Source of the DNA: a bacterium SCSIO 12827
Lineage (GTDB): Bacteria > Pseudomonadota > Alphaproteobacteria > Rhodospirillales > Casp-alpha2
DNA length: 64,000 nt
NCBI GenBank assembly: GCA_024397995.1
Contig: CP073746.1
Coordinates: 682,001-746,000, forward strand
Reading direction: 5' to 3'
Shown here in pieces: positions 41,579 through 47,433 of the stretch (positions are counted from its first letter, which is position 1; every line of letters starts with the position of its first letter). The notes beneath the pieces are model-generated. The model was not told the DNA's origin. It ran no database searches and worked only from the letters and a program-made list of their open reading frames with translations. Position numbers and translations under genes: made by a program.

Positions 41579-41956
41579 ATGGATCACTCCGTCCTGGTGG
41601 TCGAAGACGATGACAACATCGTTCTGTCGCTGAAATTTCTGCTCGAAAAATCGGGGTTCACGACGCGGGTCGTCGGCGACGGAAATGCGGCGCTCGGCGA
41701 AATGCGCGCGGCCAAACCGGATGTCGTGCTGCTGGACGTCATGCTGCCGGAACGGGACGGTTTTTCCGTATGCGAGGAAATTCGCGGCAACAGCGCCTGG
41801 TCCGATGTTCACGTCATCATGCTGACGGCCAAGGGGCGCGAGGCGGACCGCGAAAAGGGCCTGTCCGCCGGGGCCGACGACTTCATCACCAAACCGTTTT
41901 CCACCCGTGACCTGGTCGCCAGGGTCAAGGCCGCGGTCGGGTTGGCCGTGGACTGA
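41579..41956 (+). CDS. single-domain response regulator receiver
   Basis: A 125-residue CheY-like receiver with no output domain. Acidic pocket residues lie in VVEDDD (residues 8-11), the phospho-acceptor is Asp53 (VLLDVMLPE), Thr lies in MLTAKG, and Lys in ITKPFS. Such proteins relay phosphate or act by binding a partner. It is the first gene of a locus with a transporter-like kinase and an HPt protein, so it could be an intermediate in a phosphorelay. The stop overlaps the next ATG (TGATG). Confidence 0.94.
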   Translation: MDHSVLVVEDDDNIVLSLKFLLEKSGFTTRVVGDGNAALGEMRAAKPDVVLLDVMLPERDGFSVCEEIRGNSAWSDVHVIMLTAKGREADREKGLSAGADDFITKPFSTRDLVARVKAAVGLAVD

Positions 41957-42225
41957 TGGTGGACGGTCCGGCACGCGATCCCGAGCGGCGCCGGGCGGGT
42001 GCTCCGGAGCGGGGAGCAAGCCGGGTCGGCGCCTTTTCCGTCTCCTTATTCCTGATTGCCACGCTGCTGTTTCTGCCGCCCCTGGTGACCCTGGGCGAGG
42101 GGCCGGCCGACCTATTCGGGCTGCCGCGGATTTTCGTGATTCTGTTCGCCGTATGGATCGGCGTCGTCGCCATGATCTACCTGATCGCCGAACACGTCGA
42201 CCGGCCTGCCCCGCGGGACGACTGA
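41956..42225 (+). CDS. small two-helix membrane protein, unknown
   Basis: An 89-residue protein with a charged N-terminus rich in Arg (about 1-22) and two hydrophobic helices (VGAFSVSLFLIATLLFLPPLVTL and IFVILFAVWIGVVAMIYLIAEHV). I do not recognise a named family. The two-helix layout and its place directly before a solute:sodium-symporter-like protein recall the small accessory proteins that precede acetate and other SSS transporters. It starts inside the receiver stop and ends one base before the kinase start, so all three are translationally coupled. Confidence 0.8.
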   Translation: MVDGPARDPERRRAGAPERGASRVGAFSVSLFLIATLLFLPPLVTLGEGPADLFGLPRIFVILFAVWIGVVAMIYLIAEHVDRPAPRDD

Positions 42226-42226
42226 C

Positions 42227-44974
42227 GTGCTCGAAGGCTGGGTCATCTTCATCGCGTCGGTGGCTTATCTCGGGCTGCTGTTTGCGATCGCCTTCTGGGG
42301 CGACAAGCGGGCGGATGCCGGGCGCTCGATCCTCAACAATCCCTATATCTACGCGCTGTCCATGGCGGTCTATTGCACAAGCTGGACCTTCTACGGCAGC
42401 GTCGGCCGGGCCGCGACCTCGGGCCTGGATTTTCTGCCCATCTACCTGGGGCCGACTCTGGTGCTGGTGCTTTGGCCCTTCGTGCTGGAAAAAATGGTCC
42501 GCATCTCGGCGGAAAACCGCATCACCTCGATCGCCGATTTCATCGCCTCCCGCTACGGCAAAAGCATCTATCTCGGCGGTCTGGTCACGGTGATCGTGGT
42601 GGTCGGCATCCTGCCTTACATCGCCTTGCAGCTTAAGGCCGTGTCGACCAGCTTTACCGTGCTGATTCAATATCCGGAAATCGTCATGCCGCGGCATCTC
42701 GGGCGTGTGCCGCTGTTCCAGGACACGGCCTTTTTCGTGGCCCTGATCATGGCCCTGTTCGCCATCCTGTTCGGCACCCGCCACATCGACGCTTCGGAAC
42801 ATCACGAAGGCATGGTGATCGCCGTCGCCTTCGAATCGATCATCAAGTTGCTGGCGTTCCTTGCCGTCGGGTTTTACGTCACCTACGGCGTTTTTGACGG
42901 GTTCGGCGACCTGTTCGCCAAGGGCAACGCGGTTCCGGAAATTTCCCATCTGTTCCATCAGGTCGGGGCCGGGGGTTATGCGCAATGGTCGACCCTGCTG
43001 GTGCTGTCCATGTTCGCCATTGTCTGCTTGCCGCGTCAGTTCCAGGTGGGGGTGGTCGAAAACGTCAATCCGGACCATGTGCGCAAGGCGGCCTGGCTGT
43101 TCCCGCTGTATCTGAACCTGATCAACGTGTTCGTGCTGCCGATCGCCATCGGTGGTTTGCTGCAGTTCCCCGACGGCGGTGTCGATGCGGATACCTTCGT
43201 TTTGACGGTGGCCATGGCCAATCAGAACGAGGGCATGGCCCTGTTCGCCTATATCGGTGGGCTGTCTGCGGCGACGGGGATGCTGATCGTCGCGACCATC
43301 GCGCTGTCGACCATGGTGTGCAACGACCTGGTGGTGCCGGTGCTGTTGCGCATGCGGTGGTTCCAGACCCGGTTTACCGGCGACCTGTCCGCGTTCCTGC
43401 TGTTCGTTCGGCGCAGTGCGATCCTGTTCGTGTTGTTGCTGGCCTATACCTACATGCGGCTGATCGGGGAATCCTATGCCCTGGTGACCATCGGTCTGGT
43501 GTCCTTCGCCGCGGCGGCGCAGTTTGCGCCGTCGTTGTTGGGCGGCATTTTCTGGAAGGGCGGCACGCGGGCCGGCGCCATGACTGGCCTTTTGCTGGGC
43601 ACGGCCATGTGGTTCTACACCCTGGTGCTGCCCTCCTTCGCGCGCTCGGGTTGGGTCGACATAAGCCTGATCGAACTGGGCCCCTTCGGGATCGAATATC
43701 TCAAACCTTATGCTCTGTTCGGGCTCAGCGGGATCGATCATCTGTCGCATTCCCTGTTCTGGTCGATGCTGGTCAATATCGGTGGCTTTGTCTGGGTGTC
43801 GTTGCTCAGCCGGCCCAGCGACCTGGAACAATTGCAGGCCGGCGAGTTCGTGCAGAAGCTGGACAGCCCAGGTGCGAAACCGGTCACCGTATGGCGCGGC
43901 TCGGCCGCGGTCGGTGAACTGAAGGCCGTGCTGCGGCGCTTTTTGGGTGATGACCGGGCGGGGGCGGCACTCGCCGATTTCGCCGCACGTCAGGGCCTCA
44001 ATCTGGACCCCCGGGCGGAAGCGGCACCGGCGCTCGTGTCCTTCGCCGAACGGCAGTTGGCCGGGGTCATCGGCGCGGCCTCGGCTCAGGCCGTGGTCGC
44101 CAGCGTGACCAAGGGCGAGGTCGTCAGCACCGAGGACCTGATGCGTATTCTCGACGAAACGTCACAGGTCATCGAGTATTCCCACGAGCTTGAGGAAAAA
44201 TCCAAGGCGCTTGAGGAAACAACGGCCGAATTGCGGGCCGCCAACGAGCGGCTCAAGGAACTGGACCGCATGAAGGACAACTTCATCACCACCGTGGGCC
44301 ACGAGTTCCGCACGCCGTTGACATCAATCCGCGCGGCGGGGGAAATCCTGTCCGACAACCCGGCCCTGCGCGGGCCTGAACGCGACCGTTTCTACAGCGT
44401 CGTGGTCGCCGAAACGCAACGGCTGACGCGCCTGATCGACCAGCTTCTTGACCTTTCGAAGATGGAAGCCGGCAATCTAAAATGGAATATGATCGCGCTT
44501 GATCTGGGTGCGGTCATGGAGGCCGCCGTGGCCGCGGCATCACCCCTGGCCCAGGCCGAGGGCGTGCGCCTGGAATTGGACCTTTCCGGCGGCCTGCCCC
44601 GGGTTCGTGCCGACCGCGACCGGTTGATCCAGGTTCTGGTCAATCTGATTTCCAATGCCGTGAAATTCTGTGATCCGAACGATGGACATATCCGTGTTAC
44701 CGCCACGGTGGATGGTGGCATGGTTACCGTCGATGTGATCGACAACGGCCCCGGTGTGGCGCCCGGCGAACGGGACCGCATTTTCGAACGTTTCCAGCAG
44801 GGCGGGTCGGGCGAAACCCTGACCAACAAGCCGAAGGGAACGGGGTTGGGTCTCGCCATCTGCCGCGAGATCGTGGAACGTTTCGGCGGTAAGGTATGGG
44901 TCGAGGCGGCGCCGGGGCAGGGGTCCGTGTTTCGCTTCACGGTGCCGGCATCAAGCACGGACGCGACAGGCTGA
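42227..44974 (+). CDS. SSS/SLC5-domain sensor histidine kinase (CbrA/CrbS-like)
   Basis: A 915-residue protein with a GTG start. Residues 1-520 form a sodium/solute symporter-like domain of about 13 helices (YALSMAVYCTSWTFYGSVG, AENRITSIADFIASRYGKS). A linker domain and coiled coil (LEEKSKALEETTAELRAANERLKELDRM) follow. HisKA has GHEFRTPLT (His692), and the ATPase domain has NLISNAVKF, DNGPGVAP and GTGLGLAI. It has no receiver domain of its own. CbrA and CrbS, of similar build, respond to histidine or acetate. The adjacent single-domain receiver and HPt protein suggest a split phosphorelay. Confidence 0.93.
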   Translation: MLEGWVIFIASVAYLGLLFAIAFWGDKRADAGRSILNNPYIYALSMAVYCTSWTFYGSVGRAATSGLDFLPIYLGPTLVLVLWPFVLEKMVRISAENRITSIADFIASRYGKSIYLGGLVTVIVVVGILPYIALQLKAVSTSFTVLIQYPEIVMPRHLGRVPLFQDTAFFVALIMALFAILFGTRHIDASEHHEGMVIAVAFESIIKLLAFLAVGFYVTYGVFDGFGDLFAKGNAVPEISHLFHQVGAGGYAQWSTLLVLSMFAIVCLPRQFQVGVVENVNPDHVRKAAWLFPLYLNLINVFVLPIAIGGLLQFPDGGVDADTFVLTVAMANQNEGMALFAYIGGLSAATGMLIVATIALSTMVCNDLVVPVLLRMRWFQTRFTGDLSAFLLFVRRSAILFVLLLAYTYMRLIGESYALVTIGLVSFAAAAQFAPSLLGGIFWKGGTRAGAMTGLLLGTAMWFYTLVLPSFARSGWVDISLIELGPFGIEYLKPYALFGLSGIDHLSHSLFWSMLVNIGGFVWVSLLSRPSDLEQLQAGEFVQKLDSPGAKPVTVWRGSAAVGELKAVLRRFLGDDRAGAALADFAARQGLNLDPRAEAAPALVSFAERQLAGVIGAASAQAVVASVTKGEVVSTEDLMRILDETSQVIEYSHELEEKSKALEETTAELRAANERLKELDRMKDNFITTVGHEFRTPLTSIRAAGEILSDNPALRGPERDRFYSVVVAETQRLTRLIDQLLDLSKMEAGNLKWNMIALDLGAVMEAAVAAASPLAQAEGVRLELDLSGGLPRVRADRDRLIQVLVNLISNAVKFCDPNDGHIRVTATVDGGMVTVDVIDNGPGVAPGERDRIFERFQQGGSGETLTNKPKGTGLGLAICREIVERFGGKVWVEAAPGQGSVFRFTVPASSTDATG

Positions 44975-45108
44975 TCGGTGCCCATGCCGACAACCGCCTA
45001 AAGTCCGACTCGATATTGCCAGCGCAACAATTTAACCTGTCAGGCATCGCAAGGACTTACAAACCATCGGATGCTCAGATATCGCCGGTGCAATGCCGGA
45101 GTTTACCC

Positions 45109-45546
45109 ATGACAGAAACAGCACCTCCGGATAACGCATATCAGCAGCCTGCAATGCCTGGGTCTTCCAGCCGCCTGCCTGACAATCTGCCGGGGATTGA
45201 TATCGACGGGTTTCGTGTGATGGTGCGGGGCAACGACGACATAATCCGCAAGCTGCTGAACAAATTTGCCGATACCTATGGCGGCAAGGCGACGGAGATT
45301 GCGGCCGATGTGGCGGCGGGCAATTTTCAGCAGGCCATCAGTACCGCACATACATTGAAGGGCGTCAGCGGCAATATTCGGGCGACAGCGGTGTTCGAGG
45401 CGGCGAAAGCCCTTGAAGCCGCCTTGAAGGCGGCGCCCGAGGGCCCGGCGATCGAGTCGCTGCTGAACGACCTCGCTGACGCATTGGACCTGGTCATGGC
45501 CGGGTTGGAACATGCGCTTGGGCGTTCGCCGAATTCGCCGGCTTAG
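45109..45546 (+). CDS. HPt (histidine phosphotransfer) domain protein
   Basis: A 145-residue protein. After a flexible first 35 residues an HPt four-helix bundle begins (LLNKFADTYGGKATEIAADVAAGN). The phospho-acceptor is His81 in AHTLKGVSGNI. It would accept phosphate from a receiver and pass it on. The start at 45109 is the only ATG that gives a plausible length; the upstream in-frame part overlaps the kinase gene end. It stands 134 bases after the kinase and in the same orientation. Confidence 0.9.
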   Translation: MTETAPPDNAYQQPAMPGSSSRLPDNLPGIDIDGFRVMVRGNDDIIRKLLNKFADTYGGKATEIAADVAAGNFQQAISTAHTLKGVSGNIRATAVFEAAKALEAALKAAPEGPAIESLLNDLADALDLVMAGLEHALGRSPNSPA

Positions 45547-45607: not shown

Positions 45608-45768
45608 CAAAATATCCCGGTTTCTCTTGCCATGTCTTGATTCTGGCATCTGAAATCCCGAAGACAGATAGGTGAACATCGGTTAATATGTCGCCAAACC
45701 TATACCCGGGCGCCACATCAGACCTGGGACAGGGCAATGATTCGTGGAATCCCATGGGGGGAAACATA

Positions 45769-47433
45769 ATGTCGCGATCGCCAATGTTGGGCGCGCGCCT
45801 TCGGCGGCTCCGCAAGGACCGTGGACTGACGCAGGTTAAGCTTGCTGAAATTCTTGGCATCTCGCCCAGCTACCTGAACATGATCGAGCACAACGACCGG
45901 CCCTTGACCGTGTCGCTGCTGCTCAAGCTTTCCGAAGCGCTTGGCGTTGATCTGCGGGACTTTTCCGCGGGCGACGAGGTGCGCATCAAAAGCGACCTGG
46001 AAGAGGCCCTGTCCGACCCCATGTTCGGCGGCACCCGTCCCTCGGCGGCGGAACTGGACGAATTCGTGACCTCCGTGCCCGACATCTGCCGCTCGTTCCT
46101 GCGCCTTTACAGGTCCTACCGCAACAGCCGCGAGGATGTGGAGGCACTGACGGACAAGTTGGCGTCCAGCCCTTATCTGGTGGCCTCCAGCCATTCCGTG
46201 CGCACGCTGCTGACCTCGGTCCGCAGCTTCTCGGAAATCCTGCTCGACAACATCGATCTGGCGGCGGCCGAGCGTCAGCAGTTCCTCGGCATCGTGGTCG
46301 ATGGCACGGAAAAGCTCACCCTTCAGGTCGATGAACTGCTGCGTTTCATCACCGGCGAAAATCTCGACAACCTGCTCGACAGCCGTACGCCGGCGGAAGA
46401 GGTCGGCGACTTCACCGAACGTAACGATAATTTCTTCGACGACCTGGACCGTCGGGCGGAGTCGCTCCGCGCCGAAATCGGAATGGAGACCGTGGGCCTG
46501 TTCTCGCGTCTGTCCGAGGTGCTGCGGGACCGCTTTGGGATCGAGGTCGAAACCTCGGGCGCCGGTGATGGAAATCGGGGCGGGGCGGTGATGCCCGCCG
46601 TGCGCCTGGAACCCGGGCCGGGCGGGACGGGTGGCCGGCTGATCGTGCGCGATGATTTGGCCTTGCCCAGTCTGCGCTTCCACCTGGCGCGCGAAACCGG
46701 CCGCCGGGCCGCCGCCGACCTGATCGATACCTGGGTCGGGGAAGCGGAGTTGTCTCCCGCTTCCGAAGATCTTTGCCGGGATTATCTGGCGGAATATTTC
46801 GCCGCCGCGGTGCTGATGCCCTATGACGCCTTTCTCGACCGCGCCCGGGCCTATCGCTACGACGTGGAGCGCCTGAGCCAGGCCTTCGGCGTCAGCCTGG
46901 AGCAGGCCTGTCGGCGTCTCGCGACCCTGCGCCGCCCGGGCGAAGAAGGCGTGCGTTTCCACTTCCTGCGCATCGACGGTGCGGGCAACGTGTTCCGGCG
47001 GGTGCCTGGCTCGGGTCTGCCGATCCCCCGGTTCGCGGGAATCTGCCCGCGCTGGAATGTGCATGCGGCCAGCGGTCGGCCGGGAACTGTCGATGCCCAG
47101 GTTCTGCAACTGGCAGACGGCAGTGCCTATCTTTCCGTTGCCTTCGGCCAGCGCCGGCCCGGGTCCGGCTATAACGCGCCAGACGGCAGCTATGCGTTGG
47201 CGCTGGGCTGCCGGTTGGAGGATGCGGGTGAGCTGGTCTATTCGGGCGGCCTGGATTTGACGCGCTCGGAAACCTTCCTGCCCGTCGGGGTGACCTGCCG
47301 GCTGTGCGAACGGACCGACTGCGCCCAGCGCGCCCATCCGACCCTTATCCATGCGGTCGAGCACGGGCCGTCTGCGTCGGACAAGCCGGCCCTTAAGACG
47401 GCCCGCAAGCAGGCCGCGTCGCTTTCCGACTAG
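45769..47433 (+). CDS. XRE / ScfR-like regulator with an embedded HisKA-like segment
   Basis: A 554-residue regulator. An XRE helix-turn-helix occupies about 5-65 (LGARLRRLRKDRGLTQVKLAEILGIS). Residues about 138-200 read like a histidine-kinase dimerisation helix pair, with SSHSVRTLLTSVRSFSEILLD around His142. A DUF955/ImmA-like region at about 310-370 has lost HExxH (ARETGRR). A C-terminal DUF2083 region ends CRLCERTDCAQRAHP. DUF955/DUF2083 regulators such as RamB and other ScfR proteins control short-chain fatty acyl metabolism. I chose ATG 45769 with GGGGGGAA upstream over in-frame starts at 45688 and 45754. There is no ATPase domain. Confidence 0.85.
   Translation: MSRSPMLGARLRRLRKDRGLTQVKLAEILGISPSYLNMIEHNDRPLTVSLLLKLSEALGVDLRDFSAGDEVRIKSDLEEALSDPMFGGTRPSAAELDEFVTSVPDICRSFLRLYRSYRNSREDVEALTDKLASSPYLVASSHSVRTLLTSVRSFSEILLDNIDLAAAERQQFLGIVVDGTEKLTLQVDELLRFITGENLDNLLDSRTPAEEVGDFTERNDNFFDDLDRRAESLRAEIGMETVGLFSRLSEVLRDRFGIEVETSGAGDGNRGGAVMPAVRLEPGPGGTGGRLIVRDDLALPSLRFHLARETGRRAAADLIDTWVGEAELSPASEDLCRDYLAEYFAAAVLMPYDAFLDRARAYRYDVERLSQAFGVSLEQACRRLATLRRPGEEGVRFHFLRIDGAGNVFRRVPGSGLPIPRFAGICPRWNVHAASGRPGTVDAQVLQLADGSAYLSVAFGQRRPGSGYNAPDGSYALALGCRLEDAGELVYSGGLDLTRSETFLPVGVTCRLCERTDCAQRAHPTLIHAVEHGPSASDKPALKTARKQAASLSD

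Follow-up and report, generated by a model that had tools for sequence, protein, structure and literature searches.

A short-chain acyl-CoA-type regulator with an embedded histidine-kinase dimerisation segment, possibly a docking port for a single-domain receiver

Single-domain response regulators possess no output domain, and their mode of action is often unclear. Phosphotransferases such as Spo0B and ChpT carry a DHp domain without a working ATPase; they act as separate relay proteins and are not transcription factors. To our knowledge, the Caulobacter protein DivL has no DNA-binding domain. In EnvZ, we take the phospho-acceptor to be His243, which would place T250, L254 and A255 at positions +7, +11 and +12 (counted from the His, as throughout). 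The receiver choice of EnvZ is switched through T250, L254 and A255 (PMC2991266), and in CrdS the acidic residue that follows the His is required for kinase activity, not for phosphatase activity (PMC3510030). DivL, which has a Tyr at the His position, binds DivK~P less well when it carries T557N (+7), R553A (+3), Y562A (+12) or H579E, and the Y550H exchange at the His position itself leaves this binding intact (PMC4211667).

The regulator studied here belongs to the family of short-chain acyl-CoA regulators (ScfRs) that includes RamB, PrpR and PccR. M. tuberculosis PrpR (MtPrpR) binds CoA/acyl-CoA and holds a [4Fe4S] cluster through a C-X2-C-X4-C motif plus one cysteine of a GAF-like domain; its residues 81-152, which link the DNA-binding domain to the one that follows, gave no visible density and are possibly disordered (PMC6765138). 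In the acetate two-component system CrbS/CrbR, CrbR activates acs transcription by itself. We considered Brucella PrlS/PrlR as an already described version of the present arrangement and set it aside: it looks different because PrlR is of LuxR type and PrlS is a hybrid kinase, according to a review. Among the top-listed papers from full-text searches of open-access literature, none is described as dealing with an ScfR/XRE regulator that has a HisKA segment.

The window, the whole stretch of 64,000 nucleotides that was analysed, encodes such a regulator, P0001. Its features, all on the forward strand, are:

45769..47433, +: XRE/ScfR regulator P0001, 554 residues, with an embedded DHp segment (open reading frame and translation)
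45799..45963, +: XRE helix-turn-helix, residues 11-65 (Pfam HTH_3, E 4.7e-17)
46147..46371, +: HisKA/DHp-like segment, residues about 127-201 (Pfam, local HMMs, hhalign, AlphaFold helices 135-160 and 166-194)
46192..46194, +: codon of His142, in register with the phospho-acceptor His of kinases (alignment)
46600..46920, +: Peptidase_M78/IrrE-like part, residues 278-384 (Pfam; fold match to PrpR and IrrE)
46924..47364, +: ScfRs domain, residues 386-532 (Pfam; structures 6cyj/6cyy/6cz6; cysteine pattern)

The start used is the ATG after a G-rich stretch; a longer alternative begins at 45688. With an XRE helix-turn-helix, an IrrE-like part and a C-terminal ScfRs domain, recognised by Pfam and fold match, P0001 falls among the ScfRs; at 351.4 bits against a cut-off of 700 (NF038139), it is not a RamB equivalog. 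An earlier note on this DNA had named the C-terminal region DUF955/DUF2083, which we take to be older names of the Peptidase_M78/IrrE-like and ScfRs domains: the region stands, the wording is replaced by the current names. Residues 207-530 match the M. tuberculosis PrpR structures (6cyj/6cyy/6cz6) by sequence, and comparison with solved folds returned PrpR and, more weakly, IrrE. Moreover, C426, C510, C513 and C518, each at least 90% conserved in alignment A2, fit the sequence pattern of the MtPrpR [4Fe4S] cysteines (PMC6765138). It is the Peptidase_M78/IrrE-like and ScfRs domains of P0001 that match PrpR, a regulator that binds both acyl-CoA and a [4Fe4S] cluster. The HisKA-like segment occupies the position of the MtPrpR 81-152 linker.

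The nature of this segment was approached by several methods. Pfam HisKA matched residues 141-193 with E=1.1e-5 and 25.8 bits (curated cut-off 26.9), and in a HisKA scan of the whole genome the segment reached 29.2 bits, above the same cut-off. A HATPase/CA domain, the other mark of a histidine kinase, was sought in P0001 with Pfam and none was found, as the earlier note had said; the acidic residue of histidine kinases at H+1 is Ser in P0001. We then searched the contigs of 84,980 species with a profile made from alignment A1 and kept the best 80 ScfR relatives, although more exist. The segment is present in 38 of these 80 and absent from 42, the spacing between two anchors being 79-96 residues with it and 20-38 without. 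Including P0001, Pfam HisKA (E<=0.1) matched 28 of 39 segment-bearing proteins; for the 42 segment-less relatives, HisKA was not among the matches listed, which covered 25 of 31 Pfam families. A local HMM built on the DHps of SSF kinases matched 38/39 segment-bearing and 0/42 segment-less proteins, and one built from 45 other HisKA domains matched 15/39 and 0/42. For hhalign comparisons the segments were split into sub-groups of 25 and 34 rows, which gave 99.8% and 98.9% against SSF kinases, 99.1% and 93.7% against the 45 non-SSF HisKA domains of the own genome, and linker controls gave 1.1% and 0.8%. An AlphaFold monomer of P0001, computed from 39 sequences (mean pLDDT 86.5, pTM 0.66), contains helices 104-132, 135-160 and 166-194, the last two forming a helical hairpin, with block pLDDT values of 80-91 over 141-190 and 64-71 in the flanking blocks, the blocks directly before and after reaching 68 and 64. 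The HisKA-like stretch that the earlier note had read between the XRE helix-turn-helix and the IrrE-like part is therefore borne out by Pfam, the local HMMs and hhalign, the peptides quoted there, the open reading frame and His142 proved to be as described, and the profile comparison proposed there gave HisKA similarity. These comparisons make the homology of the segment to HisKA/DHp, with His142 in register, secure.

Among the HisKA domains of this genome, those of the SSF kinases are the closest to the segment. The own genome contains 48 HisKA matches, P0001 counted; when the P0001 segment was scored against the 47 others, two SSF kinases came first with 113 and 109, followed by 75, with a median of 54. 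A second ScfR of this kind is encoded in the genome, and its segment scored best with the same two kinases (68 and 64; next 53). A quick tree whose alignment left out the segment places all 57 segment-bearing rows beyond one branch (SH-aLRT 99), which means a single gain, or a single loss should the root lie on the opposite side. A DHp tree of 79 columns is less simple: one branch parts the ScfR segments from the SSF kinases (100/92, 45 other rows left out), and the segments and SSF DHps do not form one group, being together in 16% of 200 bootstrap trees. Constraining them into one group gave a slightly better likelihood and was not rejected (p-AU 0.53). A single capture of the segment from an SSF-type histidine kinase is most likely and is the simplest reading of these sequences, though not proven. 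The named loci come from Alphaproteobacteria and a few Betaproteobacteria.

An SSF-type kinase is also encoded beside P0001, with other two-component genes:

41579..41956, +: single-domain receiver, 125 residues (Pfam Response_reg, E 1.9e-30)
41956..42225, +: small likely membrane protein, 89 residues, overlapping the receiver's stop (no Pfam family above cut-off)
42227..44974, +: SSF-type histidine kinase, 915 residues (Pfam SSF, HisKA, HATPase_c)
44273..44473, +: HisKA of this kinase, residues 683-749, best of the 47 HisKA domains of the genome against the regulator segment
45109..45546, +: HPt protein, 145 residues from the chosen start (Pfam Hpt match with E 3.5e-10, obtained with the longer open reading frame 44896-45546)

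The order in the window is thus receiver, small membrane protein, kinase, HPt and ScfR. A full second module is present elsewhere in the same genome (L165, 2048000-2064000), in the order binding-protein gene, ScfR with segment, receiver, small membrane protein and SSF kinase.

The tie of the regulator to two-component genes, suggested in the earlier note from this one locus, recurs over many genera. An SSF kinase gene was found in the flanks of 29/38 segment-bearing loci and 0/42 segment-less loci (Fisher p 3e-14), some flanks being short in both sets; the 38 loci are one lineage, a single branch, so the counts are not independent events. The commonest arrangement is ScfR, single-domain receiver, SSF kinase, and 27 of the 29 kinase genes begin at most 1.2 kb downstream of the ScfR on the same strand, the exceptions being L045 (4.7 kb downstream) and L054 (on the other side of the ScfR). 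Receivers, with 1-12 residues past the domain, occur in 31/38 segment-bearing loci, namely the 29 plus L046 and L096; the L050 receiver, with 112 residues past the domain, was left out of this count. Nine of the 38 loci have no SSF kinase in the flank. In five of these (L046, L050, L083, L096, L117) the sequence ends soon past the gene on at least one side, in L095 the flanks measure only 1.3 and 3.9 kb, and L041 and L042 group with relatives in G015 and G009 whose kinase sits 9-11 kb off. The ninth is L115, from Rhodocyclus tenuis, where no SSF kinase was found within 10-kb flanks and a Gln stands at the His position; this Gln may reflect decay after the loss of the partner.

Other neighbours are less constant. 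Small likely membrane open reading frames of about 70-105 residues separate the receiver gene from that of the kinase in the window, L040, L045, L064, L086, L092, L061 and L165, and the four that were scanned match no Pfam family above cut-off; in L043, L101 and L114 the small frame at this place is shorter or was not found. A phmmer search with the window's HPt (E<=0.01) found, among the loci searched, HPt only in the window and in three congeners (L009, L010, L011); L012-L014 gave no match, and a diverged HPt could escape such a search. The HPt thus appears to lie outside the conserved module, and its gene is possibly a recent addition to the window locus. An HPt that completes a relay to His142 was dropped as a general mechanism, this search having found HPt only in the window and L009-L011.

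Which function of the kinase domain might survive in the regulator? The earlier note had proposed a survey of homologues for His142. An alignment of 59 proteins with the segment, some of them near-copies, has His at this position in 53, Tyr in three (L015, L019, L043), Phe in two (L022, L024) and Gln in one (L115); in alignment A2 its conservation is at least 90%. In three of the Tyr/Phe cases, L043, L015 (= L176) and L022 (in L177), receiver and SSF kinase genes nevertheless adjoin, and in G052, which holds L024, an SSF kinase was found about 245 kb off. We compared residues in 29 ScfR/kinase pairs, both genes of each pair coming from the same locus. The segments keep D-8 (28/29), His (28/29), T+7 (26/29), R+10 (29/29), S+11 (23/29) and E+14 (28/29). 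In contrast, E+1, R+3 and P+5, each present in 29/29 partner SSF kinases, remain in 3/29, 4/29 and 0/29 segments, respectively. F+12 is kept in 9/29, and over the last part of alpha2 (H+42 to H+51) only 1-5 of the 29 pairs are identical at any position. Of the genome's 45 other HisKA domains, 43 were compared at these positions; T+7 occurs in 6 of them, R+10 in 5 and S+11 in 1. The kept residues are therefore special to the SSF kinase type, and the lost ones belong to the general kinase machinery. Cognate pairs were slightly more similar than shuffled pairs (p 0.010), which we do not take as proof because both genes share descent.

Since residues essential to a kinase are lost and those recognised by receivers are largely kept, we regard as most likely, by a slight tilt of the evidence beyond even, that the segment gives the single-domain receiver of the operon a place to dock, much as DivL serves DivK; the receiver, we infer, is its best-fitting partner. 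A DHp domain of an SSF kinase would have been inserted, probably once, into the linker of an ScfR, between its DNA-binding and acyl-CoA domains. The SSF kinase would detect a solute outside the cell and phosphorylate the receiver. Having no output domain of its own, the phosphorylated receiver would dock on the DHp bundle that the ScfR dimer forms, altering the regulator's grip on its operator in addition to control by acyl-CoA. In this, His142 may serve as a conserved contact, or it may take up phosphate reversibly. The contact would not be identical to that of DivL, against which speak R+3 in only 4/29 segments, F+12 in 9/29, and the window's own pair, in which the regulator has S,F at +11,+12 and the kinase A,A. 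These points also weigh against docking itself, as do the nine loci of 38 without an SSF kinase, the single branch behind the linkage counts, the 16% bootstrap value and the retention of His142, which, in the alignment, exceeds what pure docking requires.

The earlier note had raised direct phosphorylation of the regulator by the kinase. This has become unlikely because the acidic H+1, needed in CrdS, is mostly missing from the segments (3/29, against 29/29 kinases), and further because Tyr or Phe replaces His142 in 5/59 proteins. The same histidine could be used in another manner, with the receiver returning its phosphate to His142 and the regulator, a DHp phosphotransferase in the manner of Spo0B or ChpT fused to a DNA-binding domain, being switched by phospho-histidine. 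Such a back-transfer need not involve the acidic H+1, by our reasoning, and would account for a His kept in 53/59 proteins and 28/29 pairs despite the drift of much of the H-box; we rank it second to docking and consider it unlikely all the same, since five of the 59 have Tyr or Phe, three of them beside receiver and SSF kinase, R+3 is mostly lost and P+5 always.

An improbable alternative is that the segment is a mere dimerisation hairpin that replaces the disordered linker of PrpR-type proteins, its link to kinases being historical. It lies at the very site of the MtPrpR linker without electron density (PMC6765138), and AlphaFold models it as a helical hairpin, but the retained His, T+7, R+10 and S+11 and the receiver and kinase kept nearby would be unexpected for a simple clamp. 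About as improbable is a mixed four-helix bundle of segment and SSF kinase, the hetero-pairing of the earlier note, which would modulate the kinase or anchor the regulator at the membrane, a reading to which the closeness of the segment to SSF kinase DHps and the cognate similarity (equally explained by shared descent) would lend themselves, but against which stand the diverged end of alpha2 and the better conservation of the receiver-facing half of alpha1.

The hexamer TGTAAA was found within 260 bases upstream of 32/36 segment-bearing genes (5.4 expected) and 41/42 segment-less genes (8.0 expected; some near-copies), and TTTGTAAA upstream of 19/36 and 19/42, respectively. TGTAAA being common to both ScfR sets, the DNA side therefore looks unchanged while the input changed. 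Sites of the form TTTGTAAAT may be candidate ScfR DNA-binding sites. Several loci of the series L038-L117 have two TGTAAA sites 31-32 bases apart upstream of the ScfR gene. The genome's second regulator also has TGTAAA upstream; in the window the hexamer is absent upstream of both the regulator and the receiver, which does not fit the pattern. RamB-type TTTGCAAA boxes were discarded as a shared motif, being rare upstream (2/36 with the segment, 1/42 without). With at most one mismatch allowed, TTTGTAAATT occurs at 64 sites in the own genome and the reversed pattern at 41, and no clear regulon emerged. A spaced TTTGTAAATT pair near 1560438, flanked by putative sulfur-assimilation-like and oxidoreductase-like genes, was likewise dropped.

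The genes around segment-bearing ScfRs give a further indication of possible targets. A Peripla_BP_6-type gene cluster lies near the ScfR in 11 of 25 genus labels (19 open reading frames). The members scanned and one permease are parts of Urt/Liv-type ABC importers, the Peripla_BP_6 members scoring far below the cut-offs for urea binding proteins. In L040, L043, L044 and L046 an SSF symporter gene takes the place of the cluster (by clustering; L044 and L043 were scanned). These importer and symporter neighbours suggest that the ScfR with segment controls the uptake of small nitrogen or carbon compounds. In L178, L179 and L180 (the last by likeness of gene order only) a segment-bearing ScfR is divergent from a Urt/Liv-type ABC importer, whose genes are followed by those of the receiver and SSF kinase in L178 and L179.

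A second protein that resembles a histidine kinase adjoins the SSF kinase in G037, G039, G050 and G045. It is a membrane protein of about 700 residues or longer, in the order PAS, pseudo-HisKA, DEDDh exonuclease:

L172:10422-12611, PAS - pseudo-HisKA - DEDDh protein
L173:9432-11525, PAS - pseudo-HisKA - DEDDh protein
L174:1967-4129, PAS - pseudo-HisKA - DEDDh protein
L182:8585-11566, PAS - pseudo-HisKA - DEDDh protein

The His of the HisKA-like stretch is replaced by Glu in three of them and by Arg in one, and on our reading they also hold a degenerate ATPase-like stretch. Pfam HisKA was matched in G039 only (E 0.003, below cut-off), and the local SSF-kinase HMM matches the stretch in 4/4. No match to the ScfR part was among the matches listed for G037, G039 and G050. 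The long form occurs in 11/61 genomes; in G012, G017 and G052 it is on another contig or distant from the SSF kinase. By analogy, this protein fits docking without a phospho-acceptor, and the SSF kinase type may have in it a second output through a kinase mimic. Fused to an exonuclease and encoded next to this kinase type in four genomes, such a His-less kinase mimic is a hint that the wiring recurs.

All together, we propose that the receiver-docking domain of a partner kinase was taken into the chain of a class of transcription factors. By docking on this kinase mimic, the single-domain receiver would gain a gene output, and the signals of a solute outside the cell and of acyl-CoA inside it would meet in one protein. 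The evidence for and against this proposal is, in our judgement, evenly balanced. The recurring gene group offers one output route for such receivers, through a transcription factor that bears the kinase's docking surface. If this is true, there would be a path from membrane sensor to promoter, the regulator would sum an outside nutrient signal and the acyl-CoA state inside the cell, and the idea drawn from DivL, that a kinase fold reads a receiver, would extend from kinases to DNA-binding proteins.

Compared with known systems, P0001 resembles RamB, PrpR and PccR in its XRE helix-turn-helix, IrrE-like part, ScfRs domain and [4Fe4S]-pattern cysteines, and differs from them by a DHp insert of about 75 residues in the linker. 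The insert itself is like the HisKA/DHp of SSF kinases (CrbS-type, SLC5/STAC), its best matches in the genome and its frequent neighbours; unlike these kinases, the regulator has no ATPase domain, and the segments have mostly lost the acidic H+1 and R+3, and P+5 in 29/29. The locus shares an SSF-type kinase with the CrbS/CrbR acetate system, whereas the receiver is here a single domain, unlike CrbR, and the ScfR is the likely output. P0001 has a DHp without ATPase in common with Spo0B and ChpT, and unlike theirs this DHp lies in a transcription factor. A parallel to the proposed docking is DivL, whose kinase-type DHp receives phosphorylated DivK (PMC4211667); the receiver here would be the analogue of DivK. 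Of the putative docking residues, the segments keep T+7, R+10 and S+11, and mostly not R+3 and F+12. DivL retains a CA domain (PMC4211667), whereas the DHp of P0001 sits inside a transcription factor.
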